64,000 nucleotides of DNA from Nitrosopumilus sp. (GTDB lineage: Archaea > Thermoproteota > Nitrososphaeria > Nitrososphaerales > Nitrosopumilaceae), in contig NZ_JAILWM010000004.1 in the NCBI RefSeq assembly GCF_025698945.1, positions 1-64,000 of the forward strand, written 5' to 3'. The position numbers were made by a program, and so were the translations under genes. Of this stretch, positions 40,694-63,382 are shown in pieces (within the stretch, counting starts at the first letter, position 1; each line of letters begins with the position of its first letter). The notes beneath the pieces were generated by a model. It was not told the DNA's origin and searched no databases. It saw only the letters and a list, made by a program, of their open reading frames with translations.

Positions 40694-41061
40694 GATTCTA
40701 GTCGTGATTTTATTGCATCTAGGTATTTTTCATTAAACTCATTGAATATCTGAATTTTATTTTGAGCCAAAGCCATTGCTCCAGGTCTACTGTTTACATG
40801 TTGTTTAGCAGAATTTTGATTCTCTAAGAGTTTTTCAAGATTTTCCTTTGGTTGAGATTCTAAATTCAATAATAAAATCTCAAGTTCTTTCTCAAAAATA
40901 TTCATAGTGTCTGGAATTGCAGGTGGTTGTGCACCAATGATTTCTTTGGTAGTAATTTTTCCAAAAACTTTTCTGTCTAACTCAAGCACAAGAATCTCAT
41001 AGATTTGCGATATAAATTTAATTTTATTTTTATGCACTAAAAGTGAGTGCAGTGCAATCAA
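40690..41061 (-). CDS. helical protein, function unknown
   Basis: 123 residues, soluble, mostly helical (FEKELEILLLNLESQPKENL). The N-terminal part (IALHSLLVHKNKIKFISQI) could be part of a shorter real start within. No cysteines, no motif. The stop overlaps the convergent exported-protein gene. It is divergent from the zinc-ribbon gene at 41096, about 34 bp away. Confidence 0.6.
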   Translation of the reverse strand: MIALHSLLVHKNKIKFISQIYEILVLELDRKVFGKITTKEIIGAQPPAIPDTMNIFEKELEILLLNLESQPKENLEKLLENQNSAKQHVNSRPGAMALAQNKIQIFNEFNEKYLDAIKSRLES

Positions 41062-44996: not shown

Positions 44997-47132
44997 TTAT
45001 GAAGTGATGGGCGGAGATTCTTTTTTTCTAGGTTTAACCTTTTCAATTGAATCTATAAGATCTTGTTGGGTAATCTTAATGGATTTGATGTTTCCAGTCT
45101 TTGAATTTACATATCTCTTTAGTGCTTCAGTTGCTGCTCTGTTTGTAACTGAGGCAATTTCTGCTCCACTAAAACCATCAGTTAATTCTACCAATTTTTC
45201 AATCTCAACATTGCTATCCAATGGCTTCTTTTTGGTGTGAATTTCAAAGATGTGTTTCCTTCCTCTTTCGTCAGGATTTGGAACCTCAATGATTCTATCA
45301 AATCTTCCTGGTCTTAGCAATGCTTCATCAACAATATCTAATCGGTTTGTAGCACCAATTATCAATACATTGTTTAGTTCTTCTAATCCATCAATTTCAG
45401 TTAGAATTTGAGACACCACATTTTCAGTTACATGAGAACCTGAATCACTACTACCTCTTCTAGGGACTAGGGCATCAAGTTCATCTAAGAAAATAATACA
45501 TGGTGCTGCCTGTCGTGCTTTTCTAAATATTTCTCTAACTCCTTTTTCAGATTCACCAACCCACTTTGAAAGAAGTTCAGGACCTTTAATACTGATAAAG
45601 TTTGATTCAGTCATCTTTGCAAGAGCTTTTGCAATTAGGGTTTTACCAGTTCCAGGTGGACCATGAAGTAAGATTCCTTTTGGTGTTTCTACATTAACAT
45701 ATTCATATGCTTCTTTGTATTTCATTGGCCATTCTACCGCTTCACGTAATTCTTCTTTAAGTTCTTCAAGACCACCAACATCATCCCAACTAACGTTTGG
45801 GATTTGTACTTGGACTTCTCTTAATGCACTGGGTCGTACTTCTTTTAGTGCTTCTTTGAAATCATCGCTGGTAATCTGGATTTTTTGAAGAATTTCTGAA
45901 GAAATTTTATCTTCATTAAGATCAATCTCGGGTAAAATTCTGCGAAGAGATCTCATTGCAGCCTCTTTTGACAATACTTCTAAATCGGCCCCAACAAAAC
46001 CATGAGTAGTCTTGGAGATTTTCTTAAGATCTACTTTCTCGTCAATTGGCATTCCACGTGTATGAATTGAAAGAATGTCAAACCTTCCTTCCTCATCAGG
46101 TATTCCAATCTCAATCTCTCTGTCAAATCTTCCTGGTCTTCTTAATGCAGGATCAATTGAATCGGGTCTATTTGTAGCTGCAATTACTACTACCTTTCCC
46201 CTTGATTTCATCCCATCCATTAATGTTAATAATTGAGATACAATTCTTTTCTCTACTTCTCCTGATACTTCATCTCTTTTTGGAGCAATGGAGTCAATCT
46301 CATCAATGAATATTATGCTTGGTGCGTTTTCTTCAGCTTGATTAAATATTTCTCGAATTCTTTCTTCACTTTCTCCATAATATTTACCCATAATTTCAGG
46401 GCCACTCAATGAGATAAAGTGAGCATTTGTTTCACCAGCTACCGCTTTGGCAAGAAGTGTCTTTCCTGTACCTGGAGGACCATAAAGGAGGACTCCTTTT
46501 GGAGCTTCTACACCAATTTTCTCAAATAATTCAGGGTGTCTCATTGGAAGCTCAACCATCTCTCGAATTTTCTGAACTTCATTTTTTAGACCACCAAGTT
46601 CATCATAAGTAATTCTTGGAACAGATGCATCAATTGCCTTTGTCATTGCTCCAAGTTTGAATTCTGTTTTTTCTGTAACAATTACTGGTTTTGATGGTTT
46701 GGTACTTGTAACAACAAATTGAACTCTTCCTCCCATCTGAGTTTTCAGAGATACTGAATCTCCTGTAGTAAATACATGATTAAGATAATTATAGATCATA
46801 TAATCTTGCAATCCTTCTGTTGCAATTTTTTCAGTTGGAGACAAAACAATTTGTTCAGCTTGAGCAGCTTCTACTGATTTTAAGGAAATTTTATCATCAA
46901 TCCCTGCACCAATATTTTGTCTTGTTATTCCATCTATTTTGATGATTCCAGAGCCATATTCTTCAGGATTTCCGGGCCATAGTTTAACATGTGTTTTTTT
47001 GTTAAATGTTAATTCTAAAATTTGGCCAGTACTCCAGTTTTGATCCTCAATAATTTTTGGATCAACTATTGCTCTGCCTCTTCCTACATGCTGTTGTGGA
47101 ATTTCTGCTATTTTTAAAATAATTTCACTCAT
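44997..47132 (-). CDS. cdc48: Cdc48/VAT AAA+ ATPase
   Basis: 711 residues. The N-domain (about 1-165) carries the VAT/Cdc48 beta folds. D1 has Walker A GPPGTGKT (218-225) and [15 protein letters not shown]2 has Walker A at about 490-497 and [14 protein letters not shown]. It is an unfoldase that feeds the proteasome and other partners. No C-terminal HbYX motif: it ends SPPITS. It lies 28 bp after an hsp20 gene on the same strand, a protein-quality operon. Confidence 0.95.
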
Positions 47133-54282: not shown

Positions 54283-55734
54283 TTGGATATGAAAAAAGAG
54301 CTTACTTTTGCATTAAACTATGCTTTAAACAAAGGGTTTCAAATTCATCCAGATGCCTTTAAAATTTTAGAAAATGTTGATGTTAAAAAATTAGAGAAAA
54401 TAATTAAGGAAATTGTTAAGGAAAAAACTAGGCAGAAGTTATTTCAAATAAACCAGAATGATTTAGAAACATATCTAGGAATTAAAGAAGATTCGACAAT
54501 TCAAAATAATGTTGAGATAATATCTGAACCAAGTGGAAAAATTACTACAGGTGAGGGAGTAAAGGGGTATAATGCCTTATTTTCTAGTCGATTTAACAAG
54601 CTAAAAAGAATAGTCTCTGATAGGCCTGAATCAAGGATGCTCAAATCAATGGCTTCAGTAAAAACTGCAAAGTCTGATGATGATATGTATGTGTGTGGTC
54701 TTGTAACCCTAAGAAGTTCAGAGAGAAACATTACAAAATTAATTCTAGAAGATCCATCAGGCTCATTTGAAGGGATAGTATTTGATGAAGAATTACAAAA
54801 AACAGCTGGAACTTTGTTAACAGACCAATTTGTAATGGCTAGAGTAAGTTTGGGTAAAAATTCAGGATTCATCATTAAGGACTTGATTCTTCCAGATATT
54901 CCTGATATGGCAAAGACTAAATCAGAAACAGAGGCGTATGCTGTATTTTTGTCGGATCTACATATTGGAAGTAAGTATTTCATGGAAGAAGAATTTTCTC
55001 AGTTTGTTTCATGGATATCAAGTCCAGATCCGGTAGCACGAAAGATTCGTTTTGTGTTAATTGGTGGAGATGTAGTAGATGGAGTTGGAATATACCCTAA
55101 TCAGAACAAAGAGCTTACCTGCCAAACCATAGAAGAGCAATTGTTTAAAGTAGAAAATTTGATTGATAAGATTCCAAAAAATGTAAAAATCATAATTATG
55201 CCTGGAAATCATGATCCTGGAAGAAGAGCTCTTCCACAACCTGCAATCCCTAAAAAATACAACTCAGGTTTATGGGAAAGAGAAAATGTGATTATGGTTG
55301 GAAATCCTGCAGTGGTTTCATTAAATGGTGTCAAAGTAATGATGTTTCATGGTCAAAGTATAGATGATATTGTAAAAACTACACCTGGTCTTAGTTACGA
55401 TAAACCAACTAATGTGATGAAACATCTACTAAAAGCACGACATCTAAGTCCAATTTATGGTAGTCAAACTCCAATAGCTCCTGAAATGGAAGATCTTTTA
55501 GTAATTGAAGACGTTCCTGATATCTTCCATGTAGGTCATGTGCACCGGGCTGAATTGGATATGTATAAGGGGGTATTATTGGTGAATTCTGGTTCTTGGC
55601 AAAAACAAACTCCTTTTCAGGCAAGTGTTGGAATGACCCCAAATCCAGGTATTGCAATTTTAGTAAATTTGAAAACCTTTCAAGTATTTCATGAAAATTA
55701 TAATTCTAATCTAGACAATATCCTGCAAAGTTAG
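54283..55734 (+). CDS. polB: DNA polymerase D small subunit (DP1)
   Basis: 483 residues from a TTG; an ATG at 54289 (MKKELTF) is more likely. An OB domain lies near 135-200. The calcineurin-like phosphoesterase motifs are intact: SDLHIGS (about 224), GGDVVDG (about 262), PGNHD (about 307), FHGQS and GHVHR (about 418). It is the proofreading 3'-5' exonuclease subunit of PolD. The 3' end overlaps the convergent cdc6 gene by 24 nt. The catalytic subunit is at 60005. Confidence 0.95.
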   Translation: MDMKKELTFALNYALNKGFQIHPDAFKILENVDVKKLEKIIKEIVKEKTRQKLFQINQNDLETYLGIKEDSTIQNNVEIISEPSGKITTGEGVKGYNALFSSRFNKLKRIVSDRPESRMLKSMASVKTAKSDDDMYVCGLVTLRSSERNITKLILEDPSGSFEGIVFDEELQKTAGTLLTDQFVMARVSLGKNSGFIIKDLILPDIPDMAKTKSETEAYAVFLSDLHIGSKYFMEEEFSQFVSWISSPDPVARKIRFVLIGGDVVDGVGIYPNQNKELTCQTIEEQLFKVENLIDKIPKNVKIIIMPGNHDPGRRALPQPAIPKKYNSGLWERENVIMVGNPAVVSLNGVKVMMFHGQSIDDIVKTTPGLSYDKPTNVMKHLLKARHLSPIYGSQTPIAPEMEDLLVIEDVPDIFHVGHVHRAELDMYKGVLLVNSGSWQKQTPFQASVGMTPNPGIAILVNLKTFQVFHENYNSNLDNILQS

Positions 55735-56919
55735 ATCGTCTTTGAATGTTTTTTTAATAGTTTCAGATGATATAGTAAGTTTGTATTTTTTTGTCCTACC
55801 ATGAATACCTTGGTGGACTAATCTTCCATTAATTATTCCAGAAAGTTCTATTTCACTAAGCATTTGTGTAATTCTCCTCTGGGTTAGTTCATCACGGCCA
55901 ACTGTTTTACAGAGACTTTTGTATAATGAGTAGATTTCACCAGTAGAAGAACCGTTGGCCTTCATTATTGCCAAAATTACGAGTTTTTCATGAAGGGGAT
56001 ATGATTTGAGTGATGTTTCTTCTTTATTTTCTTCAATTTTTAGTGAGGCTTCTCTGACATGGTCAATTGTTACTTTTTCTGATGGTTCGCGTTCAGCAAT
56101 TTCTCCTGCGACTCGAATTAGGTCAATTGCTCTTCTGGCATCTCCATGTTCTCCTCCAGCAAGAGCAGCACAGAGATTCAGTGCTGGATCCTCTACTGAA
56201 TTTTCAATAAAGGCTTCTGAAATCCTTTCTTCAAGAATTTTTTTGATTTGTTCAACATTATAGTTTGTAAATACTACCTCTTCTTCCCCAAGGCTGCTAA
56301 TTACCCTAGGATCTAATTTTTCTTTAAACGTAAGGTCGTTTGAAATTCCAACAAGAGTAAGTGAGCCTGTCTTTAATCGTTCATTGGCCCTTGTGAGTTG
56401 ATATAGAATATCTTTGCCTGTTTTTGAGACTAGTTGTGCCAGATAATCAATCTCATCTATGACAAAGATTGCGTTAAGTCTTTTCTCATCGATTTTGTTT
56501 AGGAGCCTTTTGAACACCTCACTAATAGCGAGTCCAGTTGATGGAAGTTCTTTTTCATCCAAATCTAGTTGCCTTCCAAGACTTACCAATAACCCATAGA
56601 GGGTTGTTTCCTCTTTAGAATTTGAATATACTAATTTTATTGGGAAATTTGATTTTTTTACACGTTCTTGGATTTTTGATAATACTTTTTTGACAACTAA
56701 AGTTTTTCCAGTTCCTGGCTTACCATAAACAAGAAGATTTGATGGTCTTGATTGTTTTAGAATGGGTAGTAGGGATTGTGTAACCTGTTCTTGTTCTGTG
56801 TTTCTGTGTTGGATAGTGTTTGGAATATAGGTAAAATGAAGAATGTCCCTGTTTTTAATAATTGATTTTCCAGATTCAGCAGCATCAAGTAATCTATCAA
56901 TTGGATCAGACATACTCAC
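55711..56919 (-). CDS. cdc6: replication initiator Orc1/Cdc6
   Basis: 402 residues from a GTG at 56919 or the ATG at 56913. AAA+ Walker A GKPGTGKT (66-73) and Walker B FVIDEID (152-158), sensor regions and a C-terminal winged helix (about 320-395) are all present. It binds ORB elements at the archaeal origin and loads MCM. The neighbouring spacer has four ORB-like sites, one of which overlaps this start, so the gene may be self-regulated. Confidence 0.95.
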   Translation of the reverse strand: MSMSDPIDRLLDAAESGKSIIKNRDILHFTYIPNTIQHRNTEQEQVTQSLLPILKQSRPSNLLVYGKPGTGKTLVVKKVLSKIQERVKKSNFPIKLVYSNSKEETTLYGLLVSLGRQLDLDEKELPSTGLAISEVFKRLLNKIDEKRLNAIFVIDEIDYLAQLVSKTGKDILYQLTRANERLKTGSLTLVGISNDLTFKEKLDPRVISSLGEEEVVFTNYNVEQIKKILEERISEAFIENSVEDPALNLCAALAGGEHGDARRAIDLIRVAGEIAEREPSEKVTIDHVREASLKIEENKEETSLKSYPLHEKLVILAIMKANGSSTGEIYSLYKSLCKTVGRDELTQRRITQMLSEIELSGIINGRLVHQGIHGRTKKYKLTISSETIKKTFKDDLTLQDIV

Positions 56920-56935
56920 ACACCCTTGTTTCCTC
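56915..56935 (-). promoter_or_regulatory. ORB-like element, overlapping cdc6 start
   Basis: On the minus strand: GAGGAAACAAGGGTGTGTGA plus a final G. It matches the archaeal ORB core (GGAAAC-AA-GGG) and is 16/21 identical to the plus-strand element at 57067-57087, with which it forms an inverted pair. It spans the start of cdc6. Confidence 0.55.
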
Positions 56936-57066
56936 TCAAACTAATCATATTCATATCTAAATAAAGAGAGTATAGAATAGAATAGTTACTCTAGTTTAGT
57001 TTGTAATTAATTATTTTTAGTTAGTTTTAGATTTCCTTTTAAAAAAAATAAATTAAAAAAGATAGA

Positions 57067-57087
57067 GTGGAAATATTGGTGTGTGGG
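57067..57087 (+). promoter_or_regulatory. ORB-like element, plus orientation
   Basis: GTGGAAATATTGGTGTGTGG plus a final G. It shares GAGTGGAAATA (57065-57075) with the element at 57223-57245 and the GGTGTGTG part with the element near the cdc6 start. Its orientation is opposite to the other three. Confidence 0.55.
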
Positions 57088-57160
57088 TTTAGCCTGAAAA
57101 GATGTTTAGTTAACAGTTTTGTTAAGTATTAGTTAAGAAATCCCTAAAAAAACCCTTTTT

Positions 57161-57183
57161 GACCCCTTTATTTCCATTCCAGG
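57161..57183 (-). promoter_or_regulatory. ORB-like element with G-string
   Basis: On the minus strand: CCTGGAATGGAAATAAAGGG followed by GTC. It matches the canonical ORB layout of a TGGAAA core followed by AA and a G-string, and it is 20/23 identical to the element 62 bp to the right. Confidence 0.6.
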
Positions 57184-57222
57184 CGTTAAGAAAGACGTTA
57201 ACATTGTTAATATCTTAATCCC

Positions 57223-57245
57223 AACCCCCTTATTTCCACTCCAGG
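57223..57245 (-). promoter_or_regulatory. ORB-like element with G-string
   Basis: On the minus strand: CCTGGAGTGGAAATAAGGGG followed by GTT. This is the best ORB match in the spacer: dyad-like CC-AGTGGAAA core plus a G5 string. Confidence 0.65.
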
Positions 57246-57405
57246 CATGAAATATTCTTAATATTATGTGAGTTTTTACCACCTTTTGTTAATAACAAAA
57301 ATTGGCCCAGGCGTGGGCTAGGCAGTCAATGTTAACAAACCACTTAGTTAACAAATATTTTCGGATCAATTGAACTGTTAACATCTGATCATTTAGATCT
57401 CAAAG

Positions 57406-57792
57406 ATGGCTAAAAAACGGATTAGAATTGATATGGAAGACTCCGATGGGGCTCGTTATGATATCAAATTAGAGGGAAACGTAACTAGAGACAAAGTCTT
57501 AAAAATTTTTGAAATGATGGATTTGATGAATATTGAAGAAGAGCAAGAAGCAACAAACATGGATTCTGTTGGCTCCAAAATTTGGTATATTGTAGATAAA
57601 TTCTTCCCAATGGGCAAGTTTACCTCAACCAATATTCTTGAAAAATTTGAAGATGAATTTAATGAGCCAATTAAACTAAGTATTATCTCCACTTATCTGT
57701 CAAGATTTTCTTCAAAAGGTAGGGTTGATAGGACCAGAACGGGTAGAGAATGGACTTATCAGACCATTAAAATCCCTCAAAAACAACAATAA
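57406..57792 (+). CDS. winged-helix-like protein beside the origin
   Basis: 128 residues. A small beta-rich N-terminal part (RIRIDMEDSDGARYDIKLEG) and a C-terminal winged-helix-like domain (about 62-122: FTSTNILEKFEDEF, LSIISTYLSRFSSKGRVDR, REWTYQTIK) are visible. Its start is 24 bp after the last GTTAAC site. I infer a DNA-binding role, perhaps at the origin or autoregulatory. I do not recognise a named family. Confidence 0.72.
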   Translation: MAKKRIRIDMEDSDGARYDIKLEGNVTRDKVLKIFEMMDLMNIEEEQEATNMDSVGSKIWYIVDKFFPMGKFTSTNILEKFEDEFNEPIKLSIISTYLSRFSSKGRVDRTRTGREWTYQTIKIPQKQQ

Positions 57793-60004: not shown

Positions 60005-63000
60005 ATGTCTGAAAATGACGCTATTTCCCGTATTAGTGGCATCAAAATGCCTGCTTATTATCAAGATTATTACTCAAATTTATCCACTGAGACTTACTCT
60101 ATTTTTGAACATGCAGCAAATGCAAAATCTAGTCTTGTAGATTCATCTGGAATTATTGAGCCTAAAATTGCATTTGATCTGGCTGATAGAGTTGCCAAGA
60201 TGCACGAAATTGATATTGCAGAACCATTAAGGGAACTTCTAAAAATTAATGGAAAGGAACTTTCTGCGTTAATTCTATCAAAAGAAATCGCTTTAGGAAA
60301 ATATACTCTTCCAGATTCATCACTAGAAGAAAAACTTGATTTAGCAGTCCGTGTTGGATTAGCAATTGTAACTGAAGGAGTTACAATTGCACCACTACAA
60401 GGTATTAGTGAAGTTAAGATAAAGAAAAACAAAGATGGTTCAGATTATCTCTCAGTTTCAATTGCAGGTCCAATGCGTTCAGCAGGAGGTACTGAATCAG
60501 CAGTAACTATGTTAATTGCTGACCATGTGAGAAAAACAGCTGGTCTTTCTAAATTCCAAGCAAACTCATTTGATGATGAAACAGGCAGATTTGTTGAAGA
60601 ATTGAGGATTTACGAGAGGGAAGCAAGCAGTTTTCAATTCCATATTTTAGATGAAGACATTGAACATGTAATTTCTAATCTTCCAGTTGAATTAGATGGT
60701 GTAGATACAGATCCTTATGAAGTTGTAAATCACAAATCCATGGTTAGAATCAAAACTGATAGGGTTAGAGGAGGAGCATTAAGAGTCTTAAATGATGGTT
60801 TGATTGGCAGATCTAAAAAACTACTCAAAAGAATTGAACTGTATAATCTAGATGGATGGGAATGGCTTAACGATCTGAAGGGAGCAGTTCAAACCGGAGA
60901 TAATCAAGAAGACGCTGCAGCAAAAAGAATGCGTGAAGTAATTACAGGTAGATCAGTTTTATCAATGCCTAACAAATTAGGAGGATTTAGACTAAGATAT
61001 GGCAGATCTTGTAATACGGGATTTGCTGCGGTAGGAATTCATCCAGTAATTGCAGAGATTTTAGATCATACAATCGCAGTAGGAACTCAGGTTAAAATCG
61101 ATATTCCTGGAAAGGGGGCAACTGTAGCATTTGTGGATTCAATTGACACTCCAATAGTTCGTATGAAAAATGGAGATGTTGTAAAAATTAGAGATGTAAA
61201 ACATGGAATAGAAATCAAAAAAGAAATTGAAAAAATCTTACATCTTGGAGACATCCTGATTTCATTTGGTGATTTTCTTGAAAACAATGCTCAACTTGTA
61301 CCATCTGGGTATGTTGAAGAATTTTGGATAGAAGAATTAAAACAAAAAATTCAAAAATATGAACCCGATGACAAAAACCTATCTCAATTTTTGACAAAAA
61401 TCCCAACATTAGACGAAGCTATCAAACTATCTCTTGATTTCCAAATCCCCCTACATCCACATTACCTGTATTTTTGGGATAAGATTTCCTCAGAAGAACT
61501 ACTTGAACTTTTAAAACCAAATAAAGTAAATGATGAAACAATCGAATATCCAATTGAAAGTAAAAAAATTCTGGAAAAACTAGGAGTTCCTCATAAAATT
61601 AAAAATAATTTGATTTTATTAGAAAATCAAGAAGCAAAAATATTTTTTAATTTACTTTTTAGGGAAAAACCAATTATTGCTGAACTATCTGTTCCACAAA
61701 TTTTAACAACCTCATCTGGAATTCAAATTAAAAATAAATTTTCTACTTCAATTGGTGTTAGAATTGGAAGACCTGAAAAAGCAGCTCCAAGACAAATGAA
61801 ACCTCCAACACATGTCTTATTTCCAATTAGTGATAAAGGGGGACCAACCAGAGATCTTCTAAAAGCCTCTAGAAATGAGCATTTTTTCACAAACATCTAC
61901 AATCGACATTGTGCTCAATGTAACGAACCTTCCATTGGAATAAAATGTTCAAAATGTGGAATTAAAACATCAATTAACTATAGATGTTCTAATTGTAGAG
62001 ATACTCTTAACGAACCATATTGTGTAAAATGTAAGAGAAAGGCTCAGGCTCATTCACATAAAGAATTCCCACTAAAAGCAAAACTACTCTCAGCTCAAGA
62101 AAAAATTGGATTACGTGCACAAGAACCATTCAAAGGAGTAAAAGAACTTATCAATCAAGATAGGATTGCAGAACCATTAGAGAAGGGACTAGTACGACAA
62201 AACAATGGGCTAACCGTTTTCAAAGATGGAACCGTGAGATTTGACGCAACAAATTCACCTTTAACCCAATTCAAACCTTCTTGGATTGGAACATCAATTG
62301 AGAAACTCAAGATGTTGGGTTACACTCATGATGTTGAAGGAAAACCTCTTGAAAACTCAGATCAAATTTTAGAACTTAGAATGCAAGACGTGATAATTCC
62401 ATATGAGAGTGGAAAATATCTCGTTGCAACATGTAAATACATAGATACTCTTCTAGAGAAATTCTATGGAAATTCTCCATTCTATAAAGTAAAGAATATT
62501 GAAGAACTAGTAGGACATCTAATAATTGGTCTTGCTCCACATACTTCAGTTGGAATTGTAGGGAGAATTATTGGTTATACTGAAACTCATGTTTGTTTTG
62601 CAACACCAAATTGGCATTCAGCAAAAAGAAGAGATGCAGATGGTGATGCTGATTCAATAATGCTCTTAATGGATAGTCTTCTTAACTTCTCAAGGCAGTT
62701 TCTTTCTGATAGAATTGGTGGATTAATGGATGCTCCATTACTAATCCAACCTCTCGTTTTGCCTCATGAATCCCAACCACAAGCACATAACCTTGAAGTA
62801 ACAAAATCTTTACCCCTTGAATTCTTTGAATCAACTCTTCAACAAGTTAAAGCATCAGATGTAACAACAGTGGAAATTATTAAATCACGTCTTGAAACTG
62901 AAAGACAATTTTATGATTACTTTTTTACTCATTCTACTACATCTTTAACCACTTCAAAATCACGTAGTGCATATTCTACACTTGGTTCAATGCTTGACAA

Positions 63001-63382
63001 ATTTGATATGCAAATTAAAAATGCTGAATTAATTGATGCTGTAAATACTTCAGAAATTGTTTCAAATGTGATTTCAACACATCTTGTTCCAGACATAATG
63101 GGAAATCTCAGAGCTTATGCTAGACAGAACTTTAGATGCACAGGATGTGGAAAATCATTTAGAAGAATGCCATTAATTCAAACATGTATTTGTGGCCATA
63201 AACTAATTCCTACTATAACCAGAGGCTCTGTGGAAAAATATCTAAAACTAGCTAAAAGACTAGTTGAAAAATACGATGTTAGTGAATATCAGAGAGGAAG
63301 AATTCATGCTCTATCTGATGAAATTGAATTAGTATTTGGAAAAAATCAAGGCGACCAATCACTTCTAACTGATTATGCCTAA
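60005..63382 (+). CDS. polC: DNA polymerase D large catalytic subunit (DP2)
   Basis: 1125 residues, normal length without an intein. The N-terminal AGPMRSAGGTESAV segment lies near 154, Cys clusters CAQC, CSKC, CSNC and CVKC near 636-680, and the catalytic DADGDADS near 877-884 carries the two metal-binding Asp. A second Zn site (CTGCGKSF, CICGHK) is at about 1045-1065. The family has a double-psi-barrel active site related to RNA polymerase. It works with DP1 at 54283. Confidence 0.96.
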   Translation: MSENDAISRISGIKMPAYYQDYYSNLSTETYSIFEHAANAKSSLVDSSGIIEPKIAFDLADRVAKMHEIDIAEPLRELLKINGKELSALILSKEIALGKYTLPDSSLEEKLDLAVRVGLAIVTEGVTIAPLQGISEVKIKKNKDGSDYLSVSIAGPMRSAGGTESAVTMLIADHVRKTAGLSKFQANSFDDETGRFVEELRIYEREASSFQFHILDEDIEHVISNLPVELDGVDTDPYEVVNHKSMVRIKTDRVRGGALRVLNDGLIGRSKKLLKRIELYNLDGWEWLNDLKGAVQTGDNQEDAAAKRMREVITGRSVLSMPNKLGGFRLRYGRSCNTGFAAVGIHPVIAEILDHTIAVGTQVKIDIPGKGATVAFVDSIDTPIVRMKNGDVVKIRDVKHGIEIKKEIEKILHLGDILISFGDFLENNAQLVPSGYVEEFWIEELKQKIQKYEPDDKNLSQFLTKIPTLDEAIKLSLDFQIPLHPHYLYFWDKISSEELLELLKPNKVNDETIEYPIESKKILEKLGVPHKIKNNLILLENQEAKIFFNLLFREKPIIAELSVPQILTTSSGIQIKNKFSTSIGVRIGRPEKAAPRQMKPPTHVLFPISDKGGPTRDLLKASRNEHFFTNIYNRHCAQCNEPSIGIKCSKCGIKTSINYRCSNCRDTLNEPYCVKCKRKAQAHSHKEFPLKAKLLSAQEKIGLRAQEPFKGVKELINQDRIAEPLEKGLVRQNNGLTVFKDGTVRFDATNSPLTQFKPSWIGTSIEKLKMLGYTHDVEGKPLENSDQILELRMQDVIIPYESGKYLVATCKYIDTLLEKFYGNSPFYKVKNIEELVGHLIIGLAPHTSVGIVGRIIGYTETHVCFATPNWHSAKRRDADGDADSIMLLMDSLLNFSRQFLSDRIGGLMDAPLLIQPLVLPHESQPQAHNLEVTKSLPLEFFESTLQQVKASDVTTVEIIKSRLETERQFYDYFFTHSTTSLTTSKSRSAYSTLGSMLDKFDMQIKNAELIDAVNTSEIVSNVISTHLVPDIMGNLRAYARQNFRCTGCGKSFRRMPLIQTCICGHKLIPTITRGSVEKYLKLAKRLVEKYDVSEYQRGRIHALSDEIELVFGKNQGDQSLLTDYA

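Follow-up and report, generated by a model that had tools for sequence, protein, structure and literature searches.

The cdc6 spacer and its ORB-like elements

The window analysed here is a 64-kb stretch (positions 1-64000 of contig C4) of a 1.75-Mb genome that is assembled in eight contigs. Archaeal amoA is present in this genome, hence the host is an ammonia-oxidizing archaeon. The initiator gene cdc6/orc1 (55711..56919, minus strand), encoding a protein of 402 aa that matches Pfam Cdc6_lid and Cdc6_C as well as NCBIfam TIGR02928, abuts a spacer of 490 bases (56920-57405), which is bordered on its other side by a divergent open reading frame of 128 aa (57406..57792, plus strand). Both subunits of DNA polymerase D are encoded close by, the small subunit DP1 at 54283..55734 (plus strand; Pfam DNA_pol_E_B) and the large subunit DP2 at 60005..63382 (plus strand; Pfam PolC_DP2 domains).

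Four ORB-like elements are found in the spacer, in the strand order minus, plus, minus, minus. E1 (TTGAGAGGAAACAAGGGTGTGTGA, a 24-mer at 56916..56939, minus strand) overlaps the start of cdc6, and E2 (TAGAGTGGAAATATTGGTGTGTGG, 57063..57086, plus strand) is inverted with respect to it; in a 21-base register the two are identical at 16 of 21 positions. E3 (TGGAATGGAAATAAAGGGGT, 57158..57184) and E4 (TGGAGTGGAAATAAGGGGGT, 57220..57246), both on the minus strand, carry the G-string of ORBs. The original prediction had described these four elements, and its coordinates, strands and identities hold; the value of 20/23 given for E3 against E4 is obtained with the frame moved by one base, and 21 of 23 bases are identical over 57162-57184 and 57224-57246. 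The interval between E1 and E2 (56936..57066), around which the pair had been predicted to be inverted, is indeed 131 bp long and A/T-rich, with 82.4% A+T compared to 67.9% in the window. Only 0.68% of all 131-bp windows in the 64 kb are equally A/T-rich, making the interval a candidate unwinding element. In its middle lies a near-invariant block (56992..57029) with a mean identity of approximately 0.9 over 32 genomes, surrounded by variable flanks.

A scoring matrix derived from the genus, with the host genome left out of the training set, was scanned over 216,102 bp of the contig. E1 to E4 scored 31.0, 33.2, 34.0 and 32.8 bits, respectively, and the next best site on the contig reached 10.3 bits. 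With a matrix built from other families only, the four elements scored 24.1, 22.0, 20.6 and 15.0 bits. The lowest of these values belongs to E1, ahead of which two scattered sites elsewhere were found at 15-18 bits, while no background site in the 216 kb reached 18 bits or more. The published common archaeal ORB consensus, TCCA[CG]T[TG]GAAA[TC][GA]AAGGGGT (PMC4164010), was matched with at most three mismatches by four sites in the 1.75-Mb genome, namely E3, E4 (three mismatches each) and two sites on contig C6; the reversed consensus had zero matches in the whole genome. E1 and E2 differ from the consensus at five positions each and neither alone would pass, so that they are recognisable as ORBs mainly via their conservation. 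Hence, the similarity to canonical ORBs that had been predicted applies to E3 and E4, but not to E1 and E2 when judged by the consensus alone. Contig C4 holds no second ORB cluster, and the rest of the chromosome has none that exceeds the threshold; sites of such quality are not common outside the spacer.

A second, accessory cdc6 paralogue, approximately 30% identical to the first, is located on another contig (C5:16137-17255, L068). Few members of the genus carry one. No ORB of at least 8 bits was detected within the surrounding 10 kb, and its counterparts in three other genomes were without a nearby ORB of at least 10 bits.

Conservation of the spacer layout

An alignment of 32 spacers from the same genus revealed all four elements as well-conserved blocks amid variable stretches. 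The distance between E3 and E4 was 61 or 62 bp in 32/32 aligned genomes, and the cores of E1 and E2 were 130-137 bp apart in 28/32. In a pattern search, 37 of the 40 genus genomes contained the E3/E4 pair at the fixed spacing of 61-62 bp; apart from the host, the position of cdc6 was found in 33 of them, and in all of these the pair adjoined that gene. The pattern was present in exactly two copies per genome in the 36 positive genomes other than that of the host, and in four copies in the host, where the extra two are located on C6. The three genomes lacking the pattern are incomplete assemblies that also had no match to cdc6. Reversed-pattern controls did not yield a single match in the 40 genomes. 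The fixed spacing is close to six helical turns, which suggests that proteins bound at E3 and E4 are in mutual contact.

The arrangement extends beyond the genus. In 18 genomes from other families of the order, ORBs were found upstream of cdc6 with a core like TCCAGTGGAAATAAAGGGGT; in many of these genomes, two copies on the minus strand are separated by 60-64 bp, and roughly half of the genomes have the complete layout of a minus, a plus and one or two further minus copies. Among 80 genomes outside the order, 33 have the gene for the 128-aa protein next to cdc6; they represent 12 of 24 families, and the two genes are divergent in 32 cases and point in the same direction in one. Twenty divergent spacers, picked for this adjacency and hence only from families that have kept the genes together, were inspected for ORBs. 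Every one of them contained at least two strong copies, and an inverted minus/plus pair about 170-225 bp apart was present in 19/20; a further minus copy followed beyond the plus copy in 18 spacers and a plus copy instead in two. The elements, all four of which are kept in the 32 aligned genomes of the genus, are therefore recognisable across the phylum, as would be expected from the original prediction, and both position and layout of the spacer are conserved in relatives. The recurrence of the layout indicates that the module, with cdc6 reading away on one side of an ORB, an A/T-rich stretch, an inverted ORB and another ORB, and the winged-helix gene reading away on the other, is old. In closed relatives, the sequence numbering starts at this spacer.

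GTTAAC boxes, a divergent winged-helix protein and a probably circular contig

Three observations go beyond the original prediction: a set of GTTAAC boxes, the kind of protein that the divergent gene encodes and the presence of ORBs on a probably circular contig. Five GTTAAC palindromes are present in the spacer, compared to 0.18 expected from shuffling, and 15 half-sites compared to 2.8. Box 1 is located at 57109..57114, box 2 at 57197..57202 between E3 and E4, box 3 at 57331..57336 within an invariant block (AGGCAGTCAATGTTAACAAA), box 4 at 57347..57352 and box 5 at 57377..57382. The spacer is the densest cluster of this motif in 216 kb. Since pairs of GTTAAC are also present at several further sites of the genome, what sets the origin apart is the cluster and not the motif. 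On the contig, only one more dense group exists, made up of three palindromes within 20 bp (GTTAACGTTAACTCGTTAAC, C4:202633-202652).

GTTAAC was enriched in four families (f1, f2, f3 and f8), and no other family of the order showed such enrichment. According to a test of 22 genomes, precisely these four families bear amoA. Exceptions are two G+C-richer genomes of the genus (G021 and G030), having few or no complete boxes, and one genome of family f8 (G043), in which mostly half-sites are found. This pattern fits a gain of the cluster along with the ammonia-oxidizing lineage. A limited literature search found no mention of the boxes, which is weak evidence of novelty.

The divergently encoded 128-aa protein was analyzed by structure prediction, fold search, a phylum-wide profile search and linkage. 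It has no match to a Pfam family at an E-value of 0.001, and most of its orthologues match Penicillinase_R weakly. The AlphaFold2 model contains a confident winged helix at residues 55-120, the N-terminal part being of low confidence, and the nearest solved folds are generic repressors of the MecI/ArsR type with weak E-values. The predicted fold is thus that of a DNA-binding winged helix, as would be expected of a WhiP-like or UBP-like factor, yet it is a generic one; neither WhiP nor UBP was among the matches listed when solved structures were searched with a profile. With a profile built from 17 orthologues, the protein was detected in 128 of the 200 phylum genomes searched, as a single copy in nearly all of them. 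Outside the order, the gene is linked to the origin in the 33 of 80 genomes described above and unlinked in the rest; linkage to cdc6 is kept in many families and was lost in f20, f25, f30, f41, f43 and f45. We consider the protein a candidate origin-linked factor and its action at the origin a plausible conjecture. That it reads the GTTAAC boxes is an idea weakened by the families without amoA, which have the protein yet lack the boxes.

Contig C6 (56,259 bp; G000, with L107, L108, L086 and L109) has a terminal overlap of 127 bp, so that it probably forms a circle of 56,132 bp. A match to Cdc6 was not detectable on it. It carries two strong ORBs of the host type at 40743-40762 and 46213-46232 (L086:6744-6763 and L086:12214-12233), which match the published consensus better than those of the chromosome do. 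Both adjoin a gene start, and the two places share the same 26-nt promoter-like sequence, along with a 25-mer that is likewise identical but oppositely oriented. One of the adjoining genes, which encodes 502 aa, was not found elsewhere among 95 genomes of the genus, a plasmid collection contained no DNA similar to C6, and the C6 variant of the ORB was not found in viral contigs. Judging from these sites, the element may use the Cdc6 of the host for replication or gene control.

Strand composition and interpretation as a replication origin

The GC skew of the whole contig is noisy and becomes clear only as third-codon skew split by gene strand. Calculated in this way, the skew on C4 is of opposite sign on the two sides of the spacer, for genes of either strand (Mann-Whitney p ~1e-6 each). 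Mean sense-strand values for plus-strand genes drop from 0.175 on the left of the spacer to -0.082 on its right, those for minus-strand genes rise from -0.038 to 0.256, and the cumulative third-codon curve peaks at 57,789. These values describe one contig of the host and, in addition, one quarter of the chromosome of one closed relative sampled at 20 places, where a sign change at cdc6 was likewise observed without a clean two-replichore pattern. Thus, a strand-composition switch is present, which in the relative that was sampled is weak and does not extend over the chromosome, and it supports a replication landmark at the spacer. It is also one of the checks by which the predicted origin could have been refuted; none of those that were run went against it.

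Taken together, it is very probable that the spacer is a chromosomal replication origin of the oriC1 type. The evidence in hand consists of the sequence, its conservation, spacing and uniqueness, the context of replication genes, with the initiator gene directly adjacent, and the skew switch. Several ORB repeats are present, E3 and E4 matching the archaeal consensus by motif and E1 and E2 being identified through conservation, and the inverted E1 and E2 flank an A/T-rich stretch of 131 bp.

An accidental origin of the elements might be considered, given that A/T-rich DNA such as that of the spacer often contains short repeats. This reading was rejected and we regard its probability as negligible: besides the matrix scores, with all background sites in the 216 kb below 18 bits, the reversed-pattern controls, the search of the genome with the published consensus and the conservation of the elements in other families all stand against it. 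More specific to the skew data is the question whether the extremum marks a terminus. The sign of the switch on C4 around 57 kb is opposite to that at bacterial origins and corresponds to a bacterial terminus, where the cumulative GC skew has its maximum. Skew alone is insufficient for this decision. However, ORBs, cdc6 and polymerase genes are markers of archaeal origins and not of termini (PMC2643942, PMC4010727), and in Haloferax volcanii the skew at third codon positions is opposite to the gene-strand bias (PMC12999951). Given cdc6, the ORBs and the origin mapping in the literature, we therefore assign the switch to an origin and consider a terminus highly improbable.

The elements could also be mere operators of the divergent cdc6 and winged-helix promoters, serving autoregulation by Cdc6 or the winged-helix protein, with replication starting elsewhere. 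The overlap of E1 with the cdc6 start, the GTTAAC boxes near the start of the winged-helix gene and the position of both C6 ORBs next to gene starts are in line with this explanation. It does not account for an inverted ORB architecture that matches mapped archaeal origins and is kept across the phylum, nor for the skew switch at the spacer, and a second ORB cluster, at which replication might start instead, is absent from the contig and from the rest of the chromosome above threshold. Moreover, operator and origin roles are compatible. We consider a purely regulatory function improbable, somewhat less so than a terminus, and interpret the spacer as an origin.

By analogy with Sulfolobus and other archaea, Cdc6/Orc1 would bind E1 and E2, which flank the A/T-rich interval, in opposite polarity and load MCM helicases onto this interval, so that unwinding and firing would take place at the spacer, with replication starting at or beside the interval. 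E3 and E4, on the same strand and about six helical turns apart, could provide further Cdc6 sites that assist or limit assembly of the initiator complex. Since E1 covers the start of cdc6, Cdc6 probably represses its own gene, a role likewise assigned by analogy. The GTTAAC boxes and the divergent winged-helix protein most likely belong to the regulation of the origin.

The origin itself is of an already known kind. Nitrosopumilus maritimus has a single mapped chromosomal origin (Pelve et al. 2013, via PMC4010727 and PMC5333045), and the genome of Nitrosocaldus cavascurensis, whose origin is a predicted one, was opened before ORB repeats and a cdc gene by analogy with N. maritimus (PMC5797428). 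Both origins are likewise characterized by ORB repeats beside a cdc gene at the point of genome opening. Compared with the published N. maritimus origin as far as it is described in PMC4010727, no difference was found, and the spacer is probably its ortholog. Pyrococcus oriC is similar in its location upstream of cdc6, its ORB repeats and the nearby DP1 and DP2 genes (PMC4010727, PMC2643942); Thermococcales carry ORBs inside the DP1 gene too, whereas the best site within DP1 here scores approximately 10 bits. Haloarchaeal oriC1 shares inverted ORBs with a G-string beside cdc6 (PMC4010727) but differs in flanking sequence and number of elements, and its G-rich inverted repeat enhancer was not seen in the spacer. 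The Sulfolobus oriC1 requires both ORBs around the DUE and a motif midway, ucm, which is bound by UBP (PMC12141716). Two inverted ORBs, an A/T-rich region of about 130 bp, an adjoining orc1/cdc6 gene and a conserved midway motif are common to both; the spacer adds two same-strand ORBs at fixed spacing, the GTTAAC boxes and the divergent winged-helix gene. The block at 56992-57029, which corresponds to ucm in position, may bind a further protein.

The ubp gene is reported to be a recent acquisition of Desulfurococcales and Sulfolobales, and it has recently been asked whether archaea beyond these orders have non-initiator origin proteins of their own (PMC12141716). A combined scheme, in which origins of ammonia-oxidizing archaea contain GTTAAC as a second, apparently undescribed motif, the divergent winged-helix protein, retained in much of the phylum, is a conserved origin factor comparable in role to UBP of Sulfolobus, and C6 has adopted the ORB of the host to have its replication driven or timed by host Cdc6, is speculative and as a whole rather unlikely to hold in every part. 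The origin of this organism is placed in a region of 490 bp, with an anatomy at base level that is conserved across the phylum. GTTAAC is a candidate second origin motif, restricted to ammonia oxidizers among the genomes tested, and the 128-aa protein provides a named candidate, with a defined gene position, for the question of further origin proteins in archaea.
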